Positions 3,011 to 22,621 of a DNA stretch of 27,030 nucleotides are shown here, in pieces (the stretch's first letter is position 1; every line of letters starts with the position of its first letter). The notes under the pieces are model-generated. The model was not told where the DNA came from. It made no database searches and worked only from the letters and a program-made list of their open reading frames with translations. The position numbers and the translations under genes were made by a program. Source of the stretch: a virus; IMG/VR virus record IMGVR_UViG_3300047998_000103, positions 1 through 27,030 of that record; one strand, 5' to 3'.

Positions 3011-6000
3011 AATACACTTATGAAATTGTAATTGACGGTGAAAAATACGCGGTAGACTCTGAATCAGAATTGACAGATATACAAGCATATAACTATGCCT
3101 TTAACTCTTTGCAGGAATTAGATCGCGGAAAACCGAGTGAAGGCTTTTCTGCTGAAACGCAAGCAGTATTAGAATCTTATAGTTTGCCTACAGCACCCTC
3201 GGCCATTACTTTTGACTCAACTAATGAGCAAGGGCTACCCCTTATTGAGCAAAGAGAAGCAGATAGGCAGGGAATAATTGACCTTGCAAAATCTAGGTTT
3301 TCTCCCGAAACTGTTAAAATGTGGGAAAGCACTCCTATTGACATTGGGGAAGTGGGCGATTTTATAGAATGGTCTCAAATACTGCCTGCTGGCGGGTTTG
3401 TGCAGGGAGCGCAAGCCTTAAAGCTAATGGATATTTCTGAAAAAATAAACCAAGGCGAAGAAGTTAAAGACTCTGACAAAGCATACCTTGATCAATGGAT
3501 AGATAAATCTATTGAAATGGATATTAGGGGCATGACTTTTGGGGGTAAGTTTCGTTACTACGGCGAACAAATGCCTGCATTTATGGCTGAATTTGCGGCT
3601 ACTGGTGGAGTAGGTAAATCGGCTCAAGTTGCCGCAGTAAAAGGTACGCAGTCGTTAATTAAAAACAAGGTATTAAGTCAGGCGGCAGGCGCTACAGCAA
3701 GGGTAGCTGCTCAGAGTGCCATGCTTATGCCAACGCAGGGATTTAGGGCATACGGCAATGTACGAATGTCAGAAGGCTTAGAGGTTACTGACACAGGGCA
3801 AGCTATTTTTAGAGAGGCTAAAGAATCCCCAGCAATTAGCGCATTAAAGGCATACGGATATGTTAGCGCCGAAGTTGCCTCAGAATTAAGCGGGTTAGCT
3901 GTTGCCTCTAAACTAGCTAAGTCTCCAACTTTTCAGCAAGGCAAAATGGCTTTAAAAAGTGCGGCGATTACAAGTATTAACAAGTTACCTGCAAAATTAA
4001 AAAACAATTTGTACGGGGCTTACAAAGCAATACAGCCTAACGCAAGAATGTCTGAAATATTTACTCGCGCAGGGTGGAACGGAATGCTTTTGGAGCTAGG
4101 AGAGGAGCGCGTAGCAGACGTATTGCGCGAATCAGTAGACTTAGCTTTAACCGAAGGCTATACCATGTCAGACGTTTTAGAAGGAATTACACCAGACGCA
4201 GAGCAATTGCTTTTAGAGTCGGGCTTAATTATGACAATGGGAGGCGCTAAAGCTGGCGGCAACTTATTAGCTAATATGCTAGTCAAAAAAGGTATGACAC
4301 CAAACGAGGCGCAAGACTCCGTAGAGTCTATGAGTTCTTTAGAGCAAGACGCATTAATAGACGAACAAGTTACAGTTAATCAAACAAAAGAGCAGTTAGC
4401 GGCACCTATTTCGGAATCCACTGAAATAAAAGAGGCCGCAGACGCGCAAGGCGAATCTACCCCTAGTCTTATAACTAGCGCACAACAAGACCAGTTAGCG
4501 GCAGGTAGGCCAATGGCGCAAGTAGACGCTAACGAATCTATTTTTAATGATTTATATTATCAATGGATTGATGATATGGGGGCGCTTGTTGATCTTTCTA
4601 AAGCCGCCGCTAAGGAAGGCAAGGACAATATGTTGGAGTCGAGCGTCAGATTGTATCAGGGCGTTTCCGGCATGGCGCTTTCTTCTTTAAACAATGGCAC
4701 AACTATTGTAAACGAGCAAGGCAAGTTAGAGCAAACGGGTAAAGGTTTGCGGGCTATTATGGAAGATTTTGATTTTAACGCCCAAACTATTGAGCCAAAC
4801 AAAAAGGCTAGAGAGCAAGACCTTGTAGATTACATGATAGCGCGAAGATACGCTTTAGATTTAACTAACCGAGAAGATGTCGAAGTTACAGAGGAACAGT
4901 CAAAAAAATCTATTGAAACGCTTGCCTATATGTCAGCCAAGTATGGCGACACTATGACGTTAATAGATACGTCCGTTCAGGAAATTTACGAATATCAAGA
5001 CAGGCTTCTTCAAATGCTTGTGTCTTTTGATGTTATGTCGCAAAAAAAATACGACACAATCAAAAAAGAAAACCCTAATTACATTCCTTTTCAACGGGTA
5101 ATGGATGAAGAATACGGAATAGAATCAGGTTTGCAGGGTATGCAATTAAAGACCGCTAGAACTTTTGCGGGTAAAAAGTTAAATCAAGTTATTAAAAAAA
5201 TACAAGGAAGCGACAAAGAAATAATCAACCCGATTGAATCTATTGTGCGAAATACTTTTAGAATTACCGATATTGCTTATCAGAACAGAATAGCAAAACA
5301 ACTTGTAGAGTTGGCTGATGTAATGCCGGAGTATGTAAGCAAAACAACCCCTGCAAAAATAAGCATAACAGACCCTAAAACGGGAGAGAAAAATTTTCGC
5401 ATTGCAGAGGTTCAGCCTGCCGATGTATTTACAGCGTTAATCAAAGGCGAGAAAAAATACTACAAAGCGCACCCGTCTATTATTGCGGCAATGAGTTCTA
5501 TGTCGCCAGAACAAATTACGGGCTTAGGGTGGCTGTTAAGCACTCCCGCTACAGTGCTTAGAACGGGCGCAACTATTACGCCAGAATTTATGGCTAGAAA
5601 TTTTATTAGGGATATTCACGGGTCTTATGTGTTTTCAGAGGCTCGGCCTACTCCTTTTGATGCCGCCAAAGGATTGTTAGCCAGAATAGGCAAGACGGAA
5701 TTGTACGAGCAATGGAGGGCTTCTGGCGCATCATTCAATAGTTACATGAACATTTCTGACAAAGGAATGCAAAAAGCCTATCAAGAAATATTTAAACAAG
5801 AAGGTAAGCTAACTCGGTATTTAAAAAACCCGTTAAACTTGCCGCAAGATATTGGCTCTGTTATTGAGCAAGGCGTCAGGATAGGAGTGTATAACGCGGC
5901 TAAAAGAAAAGGAATGACAGACGCGCAAGGAGCAATGGAGGCTAGAGACGCTAGTATAGATTTTGCTAGGGGCGGGAAGGCTAGTAAATTTATTAATCGG

Positions 6001-10831: not shown

Positions 10832-11034
10832 TTAAAGTATTAACAGAAAACCCGCAGATTAAATCTACTGTAGAAACCGCCGTTGTAGCAAGCGCGGCGG
10901 CTAACGGCTTTGACTTGGCAGGGTGGATAGACCTTACGTTAAACCCTATCTTGCAAGCTGTTTCTCTAGTTGCGGGTATTTGCCTTTCTGTTATAATGAT
11001 TAAACAAAGAATTAACGAAACTGATAAGGAGTGA
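10828..11034 (+). CDS. Small membrane protein of the lysis region
   Basis: A 68-residue protein; the ATG at the overlap with the previous stop gives the natural start MIKVLTENPQIKSTVETA. After an amphipathic head come one moderately and one strongly hydrophobic segment (VVASAAANGFDLAGWIDL; ILQAVSLVAGICLSVIMI), then a charged tail KQRINETDKE. Such two-segment proteins next to a holin-like gene may be class II holins, pinholins or holin antagonists. The sequence itself does not decide between these. It is followed three bases later by a 16-codon Lys-rich ORF, so this stretch is a tightly packed string of tiny genes. Confidence 0.45.
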   Translation: MIKVLTENPQIKSTVETAVVASAAANGFDLAGWIDLTLNPILQAVSLVAGICLSVIMIKQRINETDKE

Positions 11035-11037
11035 AGT

Positions 11038-11088
11038 ATGCCTAGCCCTACCTACCCACCAAAGAAAAAAAAGAAAGTTAAAAAATGA
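11038..11088 (+). CDS. 16-residue Pro/Lys-rich mini-protein
   Basis: Encodes MPSPTYPPKKKKKVKK. Three things suggest it is translated. It has a GGAG Shine-Dalgarno site 7 bases before its ATG, it sits in the only gap between two genes, and its stop overlaps the next ATG (ATGA). Short Pro/Lys-rich ORFs of this sort occur in other phages, but I know of no function. Binding to nucleic acid, or to the acidic membrane surface during lysis, are possibilities. It could alternatively serve only to couple ribosomes onto the following membrane-protein gene. Confidence 0.45.
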   Translation: MPSPTYPPKKKKKVKK

Positions 11089-11564
11089 CACCGTTGTTAG
11101 GTTGCTTATTGGTTGCCCTAAGTCTAGTGCAAAGAAACCAAAGCAACAAAATGATTGCCTTAACCTTTACAGTTAGCGCGATCTTCATTAGCCATTATGT
11201 TACTTTTCACCCTAATTATTTCTTTTTACTTAGCGCACTGTCCGAGGGTACAGGTATTTGTTTGATGCTGAATGCTGTACAATTAGAACATAATAGATTG
11301 GCTTTAAAGCTACAAGCTATGTGCCTTGTATTAGTTGCCTTACAGTGTTCTTTTTACACCATTTGGTACCTAGGCATTACCACCATAACAGGCTTTGCCG
11401 TAGAATCTATTTACGCCTATACATGGACTGCATACTATCTGATGGTATGCGCTATTCTTACAAGGGAATCTGGAAGTTTTGGAACTGCTATTGAATATTC
11501 TGGGTTTCGTGGCTCTAGCGTTGGCTTGCGTAAATGCAATGGCCCATTATATCGGGAAGCGTAA
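11085..11564 (+). CDS. Multi-pass membrane protein
   Basis: A 159-residue protein with about five hydrophobic segments: near residues 2-16, 22-40, 45-66, 76-105 and 108-126. There is little soluble sequence until a hydrophilic tail beginning TRESGSFG. It has no recognisable family motif. The ATG overlaps the stop of the Lys-rich mini-ORF. The last 32 residues look unlike the rest, and the overlapping +1 frame encodes another hydrophobic peptide. Either the tail is real and overlaps a nested gene, or a frameshift joins the two. Its place among lysis genes suggests a role in the cell envelope, such as holin modulation or superinfection exclusion, but this is inference. Confidence 0.5.
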   Translation: MTPLLGCLLVALSLVQRNQSNKMIALTFTVSAIFISHYVTFHPNYFFLLSALSEGTGICLMLNAVQLEHNRLALKLQAMCLVLVALQCSFYTIWYLGITTITGFAVESIYAYTWTAYYLMVCAILTRESGSFGTAIEYSGFRGSSVGLRKCNGPLYREA

Positions 11565-12271: not shown

Positions 12272-12413
12272 GTAGGCTCTTAGCGGTCTTTTTAGACTGT
12301 TTAAAGGCTTTTGCAGTAGGCGCACCCTTTGCCCCTGCTTTCCTCATAACCTCGCCAGAACCGGCCTTAATTCGCTTTCTCTTAGCATGTATGTTCGCGT
12401 ATAAACCTTTCAT
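12255..12413 (-). CDS. Small basic conserved phage protein (52 aa)
   Basis: A 52-residue, strongly basic protein beginning MKGLYANIHAKRKRIKAGSG and ending KQSKKTAKSLLNKAN. The pattern Y-A-N-I-x-A-K-R-x-R-I-x-x-G-S-G-E-x-M-R-K-x-x-x-K-G-A-P-T-x-x-A-F recurs in many aquatic phages, always as a tiny protein of unknown role. Its start shares a base with the stop of the next basic gene on the same strand (TAATG). Its 3' end overlaps the endolysin gene tail-to-tail. The charge suggests contact with DNA or RNA, or a packaged peptide, but no function is known to me. Confidence 0.7.
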   Translation of the reverse strand: MKGLYANIHAKRKRIKAGSGEVMRKAGAKGAPTAKAFKQSKKTAKSLLNKAN

Positions 12414-12688
12414 TACCATTTACTCTTATTAGCCCAGTATGCCGCAGACATTTTGCCCTTGGCTATGTTCTTTGCGTGCCTTGCTTTAAATGATTTGCGC
12501 CTAGCTTTTTGTTTTTCAGTCTTTGGATTGGAGCCTGCACCAGATACTCCTTGCTGACCATAGCGTATAGTCTTGACTTGGTTGCCAGATTTAGCCACAA
12601 CAACGTGTGACTTTGTGGGATGGCTAGGGGTGCGCTTAGGTTTGTTGTAACCGGATACGCCAATTCTTTTCAGCAGGCTTTGACTCAT
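12413..12688 (-). CDS. Basic conserved phage protein, DUF6321-like
   Basis: A 91-residue basic protein; the ATG giving MSQSLLKRIGVSGYNKPKRT is preferred over a longer start that would run through a terminator. Residues 10-35 (GVSGYNKPKRTPSHPTKSH) and the C-terminal RRKSFKARHAKNIAKGKMSAAYWANKSKW block, split here at residues 65-91, recur in marine phage proteins. I associate that C-terminal block with DUF6321, from memory. Function is unknown. No good Shine-Dalgarno is seen. A TACAAT hexamer ends only 6 bases before the ATG, so a leaderless message is conceivable. The next basic gene begins on its stop codon. A strong terminator just upstream separates it from the structured RNA, so expression may need read-through. 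Confidence 0.68.
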   Translation of the reverse strand: MSQSLLKRIGVSGYNKPKRTPSHPTKSHVVVAKSGNQVKTIRYGQQGVSGAGSNPKTEKQKARRKSFKARHAKNIAKGKMSAAYWANKSKW

Positions 12689-12702
12689 GCTTGTATTGTA
12701 CC

Positions 12703-12728
12703 AAAAAAAAGCCCCTAAAAATAGGGGC
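12703..12728 (-). terminator. Strong intrinsic terminator
   Basis: On the - strand, GCCCCTA-TTTT-TAGGGGC forms a 7-bp GC-rich hairpin followed at once by eight U residues, a textbook Rho-independent terminator. It ends the structured RNA, and any transcript reading in from the early operon. On the + strand no U-tract follows, so it should act in one direction only. Confidence 0.88.
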
Positions 12729-12843
12729 CAAACAGGGGAGTAACACATGAAAATATCAATATTGACTGTTAACGCAGTCAGCGCTTAGGCAGTCGTGTTA
12801 GCGCACGAGTCCTAAGAAATTGTGTAACCGGAAGTTAACACGC
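12703..12843 (-). ncRNA. Candidate structured small RNA (about 140 nt)
   Basis: Read on the - strand, this non-coding stretch holds three consecutive hairpins. The first, 12845-12820, is GUGU/ACAC plus AAC/GUU around UUCCG. The second, 12816-12784, has a CUUAGG/CCUAAG outer stem and a UCGUG/CACGA inner stem. The third, 12780-12763, is UGACUG/CAGUCA. The apical loops of the last two are CGCUAA and CGUUAA, the same motif with one change. A short AU-rich single strand and a strong terminator follow. A promoter-like TTGCTT-N16-TATAAT lies just upstream, so it has promoter, folded body and terminator. It may be a free sRNA, or a leader/antitermination element for the two basic protein genes beyond the terminator. 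It does not fold as a tRNA. Confidence 0.55.
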
Positions 12844-12848
12844 AACCT

Positions 12849-12876
12849 ATTATACATCAAAATTAGGATGAAGCAA
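12849..12876 (-). promoter_or_regulatory. Sigma70-type promoter for the structured RNA
   Basis: On the - strand, TTGCTT (12876-12871), a 16-base spacer and a perfect TATAAT (12854-12849). The elements lie in the last codons and stop of the preceding gene. The predicted start at about 12843 gives an RNA that begins near the first hairpin. Confidence 0.58.
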
Positions 12877-13080
12877 CCCTATTTGTTCTTCTGTAGGCGG
12901 CGTCTGCAATTCTTCTATCTCTGTCTTAACCTCAGCCCATAGATCATCCACCTGCCCCCTTGCTTTGCTAGGTACAGCATCTAGATACATCACTGATTCA
13001 ACGATGTTTAGCAATGTTTCTTTATGCTCATGTAGATTATGTTGCTCACAGTCTTTAAGTAATTCGTGTAGTATCTTCAT
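12850..13080 (-). CDS. Hypothetical small acidic protein
   Basis: A 76-residue acidic helical protein (MKILHELLKDCEQHNLHEHKETLLNIVESVMYLD, split by eye at residue 20). A GTG directly before the ATG is also possible, but the GGGAGA site is best spaced for the ATG. There is no membrane segment or known motif. The chosen ATG shares one base with the stop of the 52-residue membrane protein before it. The last codons double as the promoter of the structured RNA, a compact arrangement. Function unknown. Confidence 0.55.
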   Translation of the reverse strand: MKILHELLKDCEQHNLHEHKETLLNIVESVMYLDAVPSKARGQVDDLWAEVKTEIEELQTPPTEEQIGLLHPNFDV

Positions 13081-13238
13081 CACTCTCTCCCTTTAAATTT
13101 ATCCCTATCTACAATGTACAAAATAATAAACGCCCACATTAGTAAGTCAACACCCTCCATTTTGGTAACATCTAAATAAATTACAGAGAAAAAATGAAAA
13201 ACTGTAACCATAATCAAAATTATTAAATATTTAAGCAT
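13080..13238 (-). CDS. Small two-helix membrane protein (52 aa)
   Basis: A 52-residue protein starting MLKYLIILIMVTVFHFFSVI, with a second hydrophobic stretch VDLLMWAFIILYIV and a basic C-terminal tail DRDKFKGRE. The AGGAGAGAG ribosome site is excellent. The stop overlaps the next ATG (TGATG), and only 9 bases separate it from the HNH gene upstream. These points make it a real gene despite its size. Two short transmembrane helices in an early operon could mean a host-membrane or superinfection-exclusion function; that is only a guess. Confidence 0.6.
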   Translation of the reverse strand: MLKYLIILIMVTVFHFFSVIYLDVTKMEGVDLLMWAFIILYIVDRDKFKGRE

Positions 13239-17296: not shown

Positions 17297-17444
17297 TCGA
17301 GAGTTTTTAAACGATATTGACCGTGGTGATTATGATGCCAGTAAAGGTTATCCGCACAAAGAAGGTGAGTCGCAGGCGTATGATATGGGATACGGATTTA
17401 GATACATGATTGAACAAAATGAAACAGCGAGGAGTGAACAATGA
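17289..17444 (+). CDS. Small acidic early protein (51 aa)
   Basis: Encodes a 51-residue acidic protein, MDDREFLNDIDRGDYDASKG onward, ending YMIEQNETARSEQ. It has an AAGGAGC ribosome site. It begins inside the previous gene, and its stop overlaps the ERF gene's ATG (ATGA), so translational coupling is likely. Its Q-x-Y-x-x-G-Y-G-F-R-Y core recalls other tiny phage proteins upstream of recombinase genes. Function unknown. Confidence 0.62.
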   Translation: MDDREFLNDIDRGDYDASKGYPHKEGESQAYDMGYGFRYMIEQNETARSEQ

Positions 17445-18004
17445 AATCAAGTGAATTAATCAATGAGTTAGCTAACGCACTATGTAATGCTCAGGGACAA
17501 ATGGGGGGCGTTGTTAAGGATTCATCTAACCCTTTCTTTAAATCAAAATATGCTGATATAACGTCAGTTATTAAGGCAATCAAACAACCGTTTTCCGATA
17601 ACGGGTTGAGTTATACCCAATTCCCAGTTAGTAGCGAGCATGGCGTCGGCGTATCAACTAGATTAATGCACGTTTCTGGTCAATACCTTGAAATGGAATA
17701 CACGTTGCCAGCGGTTAAGAAAGACCCGCAAGCATTTGGCTCTGCAATAACATACGCAAGACGGTACGCTTTGCAATCCATCGCAGGAATACCAGTTGCA
17801 GATGATGATGCGGAGGCGGCAATGTTGCGCGGAGACGATAACAAGAAAGTTAATGAAGATCAGGTGATTGCTATTAAAAAATTACTTGATGAAACAAAAG
17901 TAAATCAGCCTAAGTTTTTGAGTTGGGTAAAAGTGGATAAAATTGAAAATATTTTAGCCTATGATTATGAGCGAGTTGTAAATGCTTTGGAGGCTAAAAA
18001 GTGA
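17441..18004 (+). CDS. erf: ERF-family single-strand annealing protein
   Basis: A 187-residue protein of the ERF superfamily (P22 Erf type). NPFFKSKYADITSVIKAIK at residues 30-48 and GSAITYARRYALQSIAG at 100-116 are the family hallmarks. The C-terminal region is a charged linker and small domain (DDNKKVNEDQVIAIKKLLDE). ERF proteins form rings on single-stranded DNA and anneal complementary strands, and can serve to circularise or concatenate phage DNA. The exonuclease gene follows with a 4-base overlap and then SSB, a complete two-component recombination cassette. Recognition is by motif and context. Confidence 0.85.
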   Translation: MKSSELINELANALCNAQGQMGGVVKDSSNPFFKSKYADITSVIKAIKQPFSDNGLSYTQFPVSSEHGVGVSTRLMHVSGQYLEMEYTLPAVKKDPQAFGSAITYARRYALQSIAGIPVADDDAEAAMLRGDDNKKVNEDQVIAIKKLLDETKVNQPKFLSWVKVDKIENILAYDYERVVNALEAKK

Positions 18005-20624: not shown

Positions 20625-20981
20625 ATGAGAGAAATTAAATTTAGGTATGTGTTGCGCGATAAAGAAACGAAGGCAATATCAACCATGCATTACACGCTAG
20701 AAGAGATAGAAGTAGGGTCAATACACACTGATTTTTCTGTGTTAGGTTTAATTGACCGTACAAAATATGATGTAGTAGCCCGAAGGCAATACACTGGCTT
20801 TAAGGACTCAAAAGGCGTTGCAATTTATGAGGGTGATGTTGTTTATATTCGTGGGTGCGGTAACACGCTTATTGAGTTTCCTTTTATAGATTTATATGAG
20901 GCTAGCTTTGAAGATGACATAGGCGCAATTGTAGGTAACATATACGAAAACCCCGAGCTATTAACCAAAGAGGATAATTAG
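20625..20981 (+). CDS. YopX-family protein
   Basis: A 118-residue protein with all blocks of the YopX family (PF09643): REIKFRYVLRDKETKAIS at the start, QYTGFKDSKGVAIYEGDVVY in the middle and GAIVGNIYENPELL at the end. The family is widespread in phages and prophages and of unknown biochemical role. It has an AGGAGG ribosome site with the leader TTAATTAGGAGGTAGT, nearly repeated at the following gene. It probably belongs to the same early operon as the phosphoesterase, after an 80-base gap with GTAAC/GTTAC inverted bits. Confidence 0.85.
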   Translation: MREIKFRYVLRDKETKAISTMHYTLEEIEVGSIHTDFSVLGLIDRTKYDVVARRQYTGFKDSKGVAIYEGDVVYIRGCGNTLIEFPFIDLYEASFEDDIGAIVGNIYENPELLTKEDN

Positions 20982-21436: not shown

Positions 21437-21457
21437 AAGGGGCTGTGATAGCCCCTT
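21437..21457. terminator. Convergent (two-way) terminator
   Basis: AAGGGGCT-GTGAT-AGCCCCTT forms an 8-bp hairpin. On the - strand it is followed by a U-tract (six or more U), a strong terminator for the small-gene block. On the + strand the tail is only weakly U-rich. It sits between the ends of two convergent operons. Confidence 0.82.
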
Positions 21458-21461
21458 AACT

Positions 21462-21614
21462 TTATGGTATTAGTCGCAGTTTGCCTATCAGCCGCCAGCT
21501 CTCTGCGTCCATCGGAAAGCCAGTTATCTCATTTAAGTAGTCAACGGCCTCTCGTACTGTATTGAATTGTTTCATGTCTTTTTTATTGTTTAAATTGGGT
21601 TTAGCTTCAACCAT
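21462..21614 (-). CDS. Small hypothetical protein (50 aa)
   Basis: A 50-residue protein, MVEAKPNLNNKKDMKQFNTV and then REAVDYLNEITGFPMDAESW, with a perfect AGGAGG ribosome site 6 bases before the ATG. It is helical and soluble. As the last gene before the terminator, with an ideal start signal, it is very likely real. Function unknown; the pattern 'F-x-T-x-x-E-A-x-x-Y-L' is seen in other small phage proteins. Confidence 0.62.
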   Translation of the reverse strand: MVEAKPNLNNKKDMKQFNTVREAVDYLNEITGFPMDAESWRLIGKLRLIP

Positions 21615-21623
21615 TGTATCCTC

Positions 21624-21779
21624 CTAAAGTAATATTATAGTGGCTATCGCCATGAATAAGGCTACTGTCATGCCTGCCAGTGGTAGCAGGATAGTCCAGC
21701 ACATAAACTCTGTGATAAACTCTCTGCGCGCCTCTGCTTTGGCCTCTTTTTCTTTTTTGATCTTTAATGCGTTGTTCAT
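21624..21779 (-). CDS. Small membrane protein (51 aa)
   Basis: A 51-residue protein whose first 20 residues are a highly charged helix (NNALKIKKEKEAKAEARREF). The rest is hydrophobic and spans the membrane once or as a short hairpin (CWTILLPLAGMTVALFMAIA, then TIILL). It has a GGGAG ribosome site and only 9 bases separate it from the next gene. The layout (charged cytoplasmic helix plus membrane anchor) suits an inhibitor of a membrane host process, but no family is recognised. Confidence 0.58.
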   Translation of the reverse strand: MNNALKIKKEKEAKAEARREFITEFMCWTILLPLAGMTVALFMAIATIILL

Positions 21780-21799
21780 GCTGTTACTCCCAGTTGTTG

Positions 21800-21871
21800 T
21801 TAAATAATTTCAATAAGTAGCACTGTTGCCAACGCTACCGATGAAATTACTTTGACCAGTATCCTGTGCAC
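21800..21871 (-). CDS. Possible 23-residue membrane peptide
   Basis: A GTG inside the 3' end of the neighbouring gene opens a frame for MHRILVKVISSVALATVLLI plus EII, a basic head and one hydrophobic helix. It fills an otherwise empty gap. The ribosome site (CAGGGC) is weak and the start is GTG, so this is a low-confidence call. Confidence 0.22.
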   Translation of the reverse strand: MHRILVKVISSVALATVLLIEII

Positions 21872-22008
21872 GCCCTGTTGCTTAGGTAGTAATATACATA
21901 TGGGTCGCTCAATCTATATTCAGCTAACAATCTGCGTGCCTCTTGCATATCCTCTGCGTGATCTACCGTTTCCAAGCTATATTGATCTTTTCGTTGTATA
22001 TATTTCAT
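21847..22008 (-). CDS. Small conserved-type phage protein (53 aa)
   Basis: A 53-residue protein, MKYIQRKDQYSLETVDHAED followed by MQEARRLLAEYRLSDPYVYY and YLSNRACTGYWSK. The pattern A-R-x-L-L-x-E-Y and Y-Y-L-S-x-R-A-C-x-G-W/Y recurs in short phage proteins of unknown function. A GGAG site lies 7-8 bases before the ATG. It is soluble and mostly helical. It sits mid-way in the leftward small-gene block. Confidence 0.66.
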   Translation of the reverse strand: MKYIQRKDQYSLETVDHAEDMQEARRLLAEYRLSDPYVYYYLSNRACTGYWSK

Positions 22009-22026
22009 TGCTGTGACTCCATTTCT

Positions 22027-22263
22027 TTATATGAATGATTTGATTCCTGCTATTAATTCCAGTCCTACTTCAGTCGGCGTTTCATCAAAATAGCCATTAC
22101 TTATTAATTGCTTTATGTGCCTTTTATCGCCAAAAAACGAAGTAGAACAGCCTGCTATTCCTGCTTTCGGTATAGACCACAAAAAACCTCTTTTATTTAC
22201 CCATATATCCCAATTAGAATTCCCAATAAAAGCAAGCTTTAAATTTGATTGATCGGTTGTCAT
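22027..22263 (-). CDS. Hypothetical protein (78 aa)
   Basis: A 78-residue protein (SNLKLAFIGNSNWDIWVNKR, then IAGCSTSFFGDKRHIKQLIS and a C-terminal TPTEVGLELIAGI helix), soluble and mixed alpha/beta. An AGAGGATAA ribosome site precedes the ATG. Its start shares a base with the stop of the preceding gene, so the two are coupled. No family recognised. Confidence 0.55.
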   Translation of the reverse strand: MTTDQSNLKLAFIGNSNWDIWVNKRGFLWSIPKAGIAGCSTSFFGDKRHIKQLISNGYFDETPTEVGLELIAGIKSFI

Positions 22264-22460
22264 TATGATTTATCCTCTGTGGTTACTCGATGGTACCCAT
22301 CAATTCGTGCTTTACATTCTCGAAATGTAGCCTCAGAGTCGTCCCAGTTTAATGTAATCGCGACCGCTGTTTCACCTAAAAACCAACGCCCACAGGGTTG
22401 CCTTTCTATGATATACCCTCGGTACTTGTAATAGCCTGCTGATAGTCTCCGTGCTTGCAT
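22263..22460 (-). CDS. Hypothetical protein (65 aa), first of the small-gene block
   Basis: A 65-residue protein starting MQARRLSAGYYKYRGYIIER after AGAGGATAATAC, the same style of ribosome site as its neighbour. A longer frame upstream would begin in the promoter region and is not preferred. The core (YKYRGYIIERQPCGRWFLGE, then WDDSEATFRECKARIDGY) reads as a small beta-sheet plus helix, seen in short phage proteins of unknown function. It is nearest to the regulatory region at 22495-22621. Confidence 0.57.
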   Translation of the reverse strand: MQARRLSAGYYKYRGYIIERQPCGRWFLGETAVAITLNWDDSEATFRECKARIDGYHRVTTEDKS

Positions 22461-22513
22461 TGTATTATCCTCTGTTAGTGAGGTGTCTATTGTATTGACA
22501 TTACACAATCATG

Positions 22514-22555
22514 CTTATCTGTTTACGACACACACTTATCTAATCACGACACACT
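22514..22555. repeat. Two 21-bp direct repeats (CTTATCT...ACGACACAC)
   Basis: Two adjacent copies of CTTATCT-N4-ACGACACAC plus one base, exactly 21 bp apart (two helical turns), with a third TTATCTA element inverted at 22564-22570. They lie in the 190-bp gap between divergent operons. They look like tandem protein-binding sites (operators or origin iterons). Confidence 0.62.
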
Positions 22556-22584
22556 ACACAAGGTAGATAAAAAAGAGGAAAAGT

Positions 22585-22621
22585 GTTACCATTAGTAACG
22601 GAAAGTGTTACCAAAAGTAAC
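22585..22621. promoter_or_regulatory. Paired dyads GTTAC-N5-GTAAC
   Basis: Two perfect inverted repeats, GTTAC-CATTA-GTAAC (22585-22599) and GTTAC-CAAAA-GTAAC (22607-22621), start 22 bp apart, just before the small terminase gene. They are likely binding sites for a dimeric regulator, or for the small terminase itself. Confidence 0.62.

Follow-up and report, generated by a model that had tools for sequence, protein, structure and literature searches.

A candidate phage small RNA gene with exchangeable hairpins and a C-rich, anti-Shine–Dalgarno-like stretch

Main

Between two small genes on the minus strand of a viral genome lies a stretch of about 140 nt in which a promoter, hairpins and a terminator follow each other closely. 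Does it encode an RNA that acts by itself, and on what, or does it only separate two transcription units? The window analysed here is the whole 27,030-bp IMG/VR record IMGVR_UViG_3300047998_000103 (positions 1–27,030; GC content of 0.42). Its gene content (Erf-like annealing protein, YqaJ exonuclease, SSB, replication initiator, DNA repair exonuclease and tail protein) fits a tailed and probably podovirus-like phage; the phage is uncultured and probably marine. Sensitive blastn searches of 50,697 isolate phage records found no near relatives of the RNA region, and a scan of GTDB genomes for a host using the tail pattern of the upstream open reading frame (ORF) gave 0 matches. Elsewhere, a 70-bp repeat occurs at several loci (20773–20842 in the window; 5135–5205, 10833–10902 and 11079–11134 in the related contig L003) and reads as coding sequence with a YopX-like motif (YTGFKDSKG..IYEGD).

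Promoter, terminator and upstream ORF

The original prediction named several minus-strand elements, and all are present: the promoter TTGCTT-N16-TATAAT, an eight-U intrinsic terminator and, between them, three hairpins. The −35 hexamer TTGCTT (12871–12876) is weak (3/6, agreeing with TTGACA at TTG only) and is followed by a 16-nt spacer (12870–12855) and a perfect −10 hexamer, TATAAT (12849–12854); the RNA is predicted to start at about 12843–12841. The terminator (12703–12729) has a stem of 7–8 bp (GGCCCCTA/TAGGGGCT at 12729–12710; seven Watson–Crick pairs and a closing G–U), a UUUU loop and eight T in the DNA at 12710–12703. The described position in an intergenic gap does not extend to the promoter, which lies over the LLHPNFDV codons and the TAA stop codon of a small ORF of 77 amino acids (12850–13083, minus strand) with the conserved tail PPTEEQIGLLHPNFDV. 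Own promoter and intrinsic terminator, as sought in trans-acting anti-Shine–Dalgarno small RNAs (sRNAs), are found at the sequence level.

A strict promoter scan (≥4/6 per hexamer) omits the window site; a weighted score ranks it within the top 0.035% of positions on account of its perfect −10. Promoter-like −10/−35 pairs occur at the same point in 21 of 21 representatives, and are matched or beaten by 0.0002–0.0035 of all positions; over the lineages examined, the sites rank in the top 0.01–0.35%. The −35 in other lineages is TTGCTT, TTGCAT or TTGAAC, and the −10 in relatives is TAGAAT, TAGACT or TATAAT (weak in L128 and L140, with AAGAAT). The site is retained despite a shift of the stop codon (the window has GTATAAT, relatives have GTAGAATAA or GTAGAATCATAA). 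Loci of the L113/L114/L124 type, a separate lineage, have TTGACT-N18-TATACT ahead of the same short RNA without overlapping coding sequence; L117 lacks this pair and has instead TTGCAT-N16-TAGAAT and TTGTTA-N16-TATGAT, the latter top-scoring in the tested interval. When the window is compared with L005, the final 15 ORF codons are unchanged and the rest is changed at many places, a pattern that is weaker or not seen in other groups.

The small ORF family as a whole combines a strongly conserved C-terminal tail (PPTEEQ.GL.HP.FDV) with very different N-terminal parts.

A shared layout with an exchangeable cassette

About 50 related contigs from several lineages were compared, using the replication protein, a terminator–promoter composite and the ORF tail as queries. 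Close copies of the locus were found in four contigs (L002 and L004 at 91%, L003 and L005 at 73% over the locus), and the flanking genes on both sides are ~84–94% identical among close relatives. Across these copies, the promoter DNA is nearly invariant and the 3′ block TTACTCCCCTGTTTGGCCCCTATTTTTAGGGGCTTTTTTTTG is invariant, while in L003 and L005 the ~90 nt between them are unrelated in sequence. The wider set shares one layout: a small ORF ending in PP[TDN]EEQ[LI][GS]L..HP.FDV(E) is followed by a promoter-like site overlapping its 3′ end, a variable segment, usually a C-rich stretch, the terminator, TGnTATAAT and an ATG. Each of seven phage records has the composite T7-GnTATAAT a single time (7/7). 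Exceptions are loci of the L098/L101/L141 type, in which a Shine–Dalgarno leader or no near ATG follows and the C-rich motif is less clear, and L116/L117, which have TATACT. That the promoter–RNA–terminator order recurs in several lineages, always with a promoter-like site at the corresponding position, strengthens the original reading as a small RNA, and the locus is likely to encode an independent one.

The variable segment contains zero to about six hairpins by folding, with about six strong ones in L159. Within one ORF family, L151, L152, L154 and others have only AGCAATCCCCTTTGTTGTTTTG ahead of the terminator, and minimal elements of 42–50 nt exist without hairpins (42 nt in the L151 group). 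L167, of that family, has L151-type flanks together with ~66 nt resembling the first two window hairpins, L173 carries ~70 nt that are missing from L148 at the same point, and L127 is an L149-like hairpin pair joined to the 3′ half of L141. Two tandem RNA–terminator units are found in L109 (7170–7420), L149, L153 and L159, with TTTAATGTAGACT standing between the first terminator and the second unit. Among close relatives, the hairpin part behaves as a cassette that is present, absent or unrelated.

The same comparisons bear on a simpler explanation, in which the locus would be an operon boundary only: the terminator would end an early minus-strand operon, the promoter would restart the basic protein genes, the segment between would be a structured 3′ untranslated region or drifting spacer, and the upstream promoter-like site would be a by-product of the conserved protein tail. 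The tail peptide is indeed conserved as protein, certain variable segments lack structure, and the 42–50-nt forms do without hairpins altogether; in the lineages to which the window belongs, the element is always found where an ORF of this one small family ends. Such a boundary would not account for promoter-like sites that lack overlapping coding sequence, or for those present in L117 despite its differing sequence; nor does termination need a conserved C-rich stretch, and the hairpin stems stay paired as their sequence changes. We consider this explanation unlikely, with a substantial minority chance of being right.

Folding of the hairpins

Folding places three hairpins on the minus strand of the window: H1 (12822–12841), H2 (12784–12816, with outer and inner stems and a 6-nt apical loop, CGCUAA) and H3 (12763–12780, with 6 bp and the loop CGUUAA). 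A homologous H1+H2 cassette is found in L167, and H3 is missing from L003 and L005. The full transcript folds better than 200 of 200 dinucleotide shuffles (z = −3.1), with the terminator supplying much of the excess; the hairpin segment without the terminator exceeds chance only moderately in the window (z = −1.65, 14/300) and strongly in L005, L149, L159 and L173 (z = −3.2 to −4.2). The variable segments of L146 and L147 have no structure excess compared with shuffles. Both CGYUAA loops and the two copies of GUUAAC noted earlier are present in the window; the loop–loop contacts proposed from them are not borne out in L002 (91% identical), which keeps neither the loop pair (CUGUAA in H2 and CGUCAA in H3) nor the second GUUAAC. 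Of the 13 pairs of the H2 shared by L149, L127 and L159, two have changed on both sides and six on one side with pairing kept, and one is broken, whereas the UUGCCG loop they enclose is unchanged; equal covariation is reached by 47 of 500 shuffles, and the support is moderate because only three sequences are compared.

A search for the hairpins as repeats elsewhere in phage genomes yielded chance matches only, inside an apparent capsid gene of L040 and L016, and this idea was dropped.

Unrelated stems in L003, L005, L127/L149/L159 and L173 carry a loop of the same form, UUGCNN, which would suit hairpins that are themselves the functional part, acting as a decoy or as a binding partner of some host RNA or protein (such as a defence RNA, RNase or chaperone) and swapped quickly in an arms race, with the C-rich stretch secondary. 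Presence, absence or replacement of the cassette between close relatives and the strong hairpins of L159 would also fit. Against this, no known binding motif was identified in the hairpins and the L151 group does without the cassette; we regard the hairpins as an improbable seat of the main function.

The downstream gene

The next gene on the minus strand encodes a small basic protein (PHROG 7595; 12413–12688) and has no Shine–Dalgarno sequence; it is predicted to be leaderless, with the extended −10 promoter TGG-TACAAT at 12695–12703 (minus strand; TGGTATAAT in L005 and most relatives). An extended −10 (TGnTAYAAT; TATACT in some lineages) lies directly after the terminator T-run, 5–8 nt before the ATG in most lineages. 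The original prediction had offered as an alternative a leader that, in the manner of HK022 put, lets polymerase read through the terminator; this is disfavoured, as a separate promoter for the downstream gene lies directly after the terminator even in relatives without hairpins. More generally, a cis-acting leader, with promoter and hairpins serving as an attenuator or put-like antiterminator for the two basic protein genes, would suit the order of promoter, hairpins, terminator and genes but is very improbable, as the extended −10 follows the terminator in the complete elements examined (hairpin-less ones included), no conserved pairing was seen that competes with the terminator, and H1 and H2, 5 nt apart, are wholly different between relatives. 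Conservation of the RNA with PHROG 7595 in general was also considered and rejected, as most PHROG 7595 homologues are without such an element.

The C-rich stretch and candidate targets

Before the terminator lies the C-rich stretch CAUGUGUUACUCCCCUGUUUGG (12728–12749, minus strand; core UUACUCCCCUGUUUGG invariant), the putative seed, whose reverse complement resembles a ribosome-binding site and AUG. This 3′ stretch is invariant in four contigs although the hairpin part is replaced. A C-rich motif lies ≤35 nt from the terminator in 26 of 30 elements of this type and in 5 of 55 other terminators, counts that do not amount to a probability because the 30 elements are related. Special openness (unpairedness) of the CCCC core was not seen in the window lineage. 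A plus-strand ORF of 13 codons whose start lies in the seed's reverse complement (MKISILTVNAVSA) was rejected as an explanation: L002 keeps the frame, L003 differs and L005 has no ATG.

The reverse complement of the window seed, CCAAACAGGGGAGUAACACAUG, matches a motif common to a hypervariable early operon, a candidate target to which a scan of the phage genomes pointed. It consists of small genes with a common ribosome-binding-site motif (AACAGAGGATAATACAATG; AACAACTGGGAGTAACAGCATG) and is located at 21440–22560 (minus strand) in the window, L002:1–1760, L003:2200–3250 and L005:10050–11575. Its genes are swapped between close relatives yet the ribosome-binding sites are alike (such as CTAACAGAGGATAATACAATG and AACAACTGGGAGTAACAGCATG), and all six listed consecutive operon genes of L002 carry the motif. 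The ribosome-binding site (17415–17443, plus strand) of the Erf-like annealing gene (17441–18004) is a second candidate, being among the best pairing sites in four of four relatives.

Two further features were observed at the operon. In the window, a second strong terminator-like hairpin and T-run (21457–21437, minus strand) lies at its end, and two tandem repeat pairs (CTTATCTRTTTACGACACAC-like and AAAGTGTTACCANNAGTAAC; 22514–22621) lie just upstream. The repeats are kept in L002 and at least partly in L003 and L005 while the operon genes change, and look like regulator sites.

Seed pairing was stronger to ribosome-binding sites of the operon than to those of other genes in four of four relatives (p = 0.083, 0.005, 0.117 and 0.014), in a test chosen after the top hits had been seen. 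The operon sites do not pair more strongly with 16S rRNA, and Shine–Dalgarno strength does not explain the seed preference. A preference of the seed for ribosome-binding sites of every kind was rejected: it is weak in the window and, in several genomes, fails to reach significance when compared with shuffled seeds. Independently of the operon, we compared own with foreign seeds, matching those of five lineages to the ribosome-binding sites of ten phage records. Own-lineage seeds had a median rank of 3.5–9 of 120 permutations (32.5 for gene-internal control windows), and shuffled seeds reached the observed own-lineage value in 0 of 25 trials; the permutation test was significant for some choices of representatives, not every one. 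Shuffled-seed tests inside single genomes were significant in a few only. These comparisons are suggestive of a stretch that, in each lineage, fits the ribosome-binding sites of its own phage somewhat better than foreign stretches do. When a strict null preserving each purine core is applied site by site, few sites attain p = 0.01 and none in the window, and the antisense role is graded suggestive for this reason. Suggestive evidence for action on phage messages, as originally proposed, comes from the C-rich 3′ stretch rather than from the hairpin loops.

Proposed function

We propose that the locus is a phage sRNA gene of ~140 nt with swappable hairpins and a seed that would block ribosome-binding sites of early genes in trans, a model to which we give about an even chance. 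Host RNA polymerase would start at the promoter overlapping the end of ORF 12850–13083 and stop at the terminator at 12703–12729, both positions being predicted from the DNA, to yield an RNA with an exchangeable hairpin cassette on its 5′ side and a C-rich, anti-Shine–Dalgarno-like seed before the terminator. The seed may pair in trans with the ribosome-binding sites of the hypervariable operon at 21.4–22.6 kb and of the Erf gene, possibly with the aid of a host chaperone bound to the U-tail, and would block translation of early genes, making the RNA a candidate off-switch; the hairpins might serve stability or chaperone binding, which is a guess. The next gene would restart from its own extended −10 promoter, giving an mRNA with almost no leader, and would therefore be independent of the RNA. 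Antisense control of early phage genes, taken as a claim of its own, is tentative and falls somewhat short of even.

Were the model true, one antisense RNA would control a whole set of early genes in a group of uncultured phages, and a nearly leaderless downstream gene would escape it. An address sequence would put swapped-in genes on a common silencing schedule, which would explain in a simple way how hypervariable cargo genes are kept under phage control, and the sequence predicts specific seed–target pairs. In its broadest form, one seed would silence many unlinked early genes through a common ribosome-binding-site address, acquired cargo genes would come under control by carrying it, seed and address would co-evolve in each lineage, and a separate hairpin cassette would pass between phages in the way of an immunity or decoy module; we think this extension unlikely.

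Comparison with known systems

The original prediction knew of no described family with this layout, and covariance searches agree: no Rfam 15 family was found in the window or 11 related loci at the gathering threshold, nor at relaxed thresholds. The best sub-threshold match of the window is mmgR (RF00519, suhB; 22.0 bits against a gathering score of 41), which is second best for L163 (21.7 bits); these matches run through the C-rich seed and terminator. HK022 put suppresses termination through the zinc-binding domain of RNA polymerase. It is ~70 nt long, with two long stems in a V, and acts on downstream terminators from early promoters (PMC9378689). Put resembles the window element as a phage RNA with hairpins near a promoter, but the window element has a terminator–promoter pair directly after it and does not lie between an early promoter and affected genes. 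Sensitive blastn of the RNA region gave three short unrelated matches only, and so no similarity to known put sites, in the 50,697 phage records, which may or may not include HK022 itself. By the tests made, the putative window RNA falls outside put, mmgR and all Rfam families.

Antisense RNAs of the sar and c4 kind have a single target, ant, and are encoded beside or within the target transcript. Those of P22 (sar) and P1/P7 (c4) pair with phage mRNA and block translation start (PMC12197685). Several unlinked targets are proposed for the window RNA, in contrast to sar and c4. We know of no hairpin cassette exchange in MicX-type sRNAs. These have a promoter in the 3′ part of the upstream ORF, the RNA being the 3′ untranslated region of that ORF (PMC9438474). 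The window RNA shares this gene layout, whereas MicX is bacterial.

SmelA075/SmelA099 and RS0680a have a variable number of hairpin modules and a C-rich anti-Shine–Dalgarno motif, and are thought to bind many ribosome-binding sites (PMC3927594); the motif is in every hairpin loop, whereas the window has a single such stretch ahead of the terminator, and only relatives of the L126/L171 type place it in a loop. The closest description found is that of SmelC671, trans-encoded sRNAs of Rhizobiales with a long single-stranded domain, a conserved CUCCCUGU and highly variable flanking hairpins, of which the 3′ one is the terminator (PMC3927594). The window RNA likewise has CUCCCCUGU, variable hairpins and a terminator; SmelC671 is chromosomal in bacteria, with no phage members in PMC3927594, and its sequence likeness to the window RNA is one of a short motif alone. 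On these comparisons, we rate the candidate RNA as belonging with the known phage antisense and anti-Shine–Dalgarno sRNAs, as a variant not described before.
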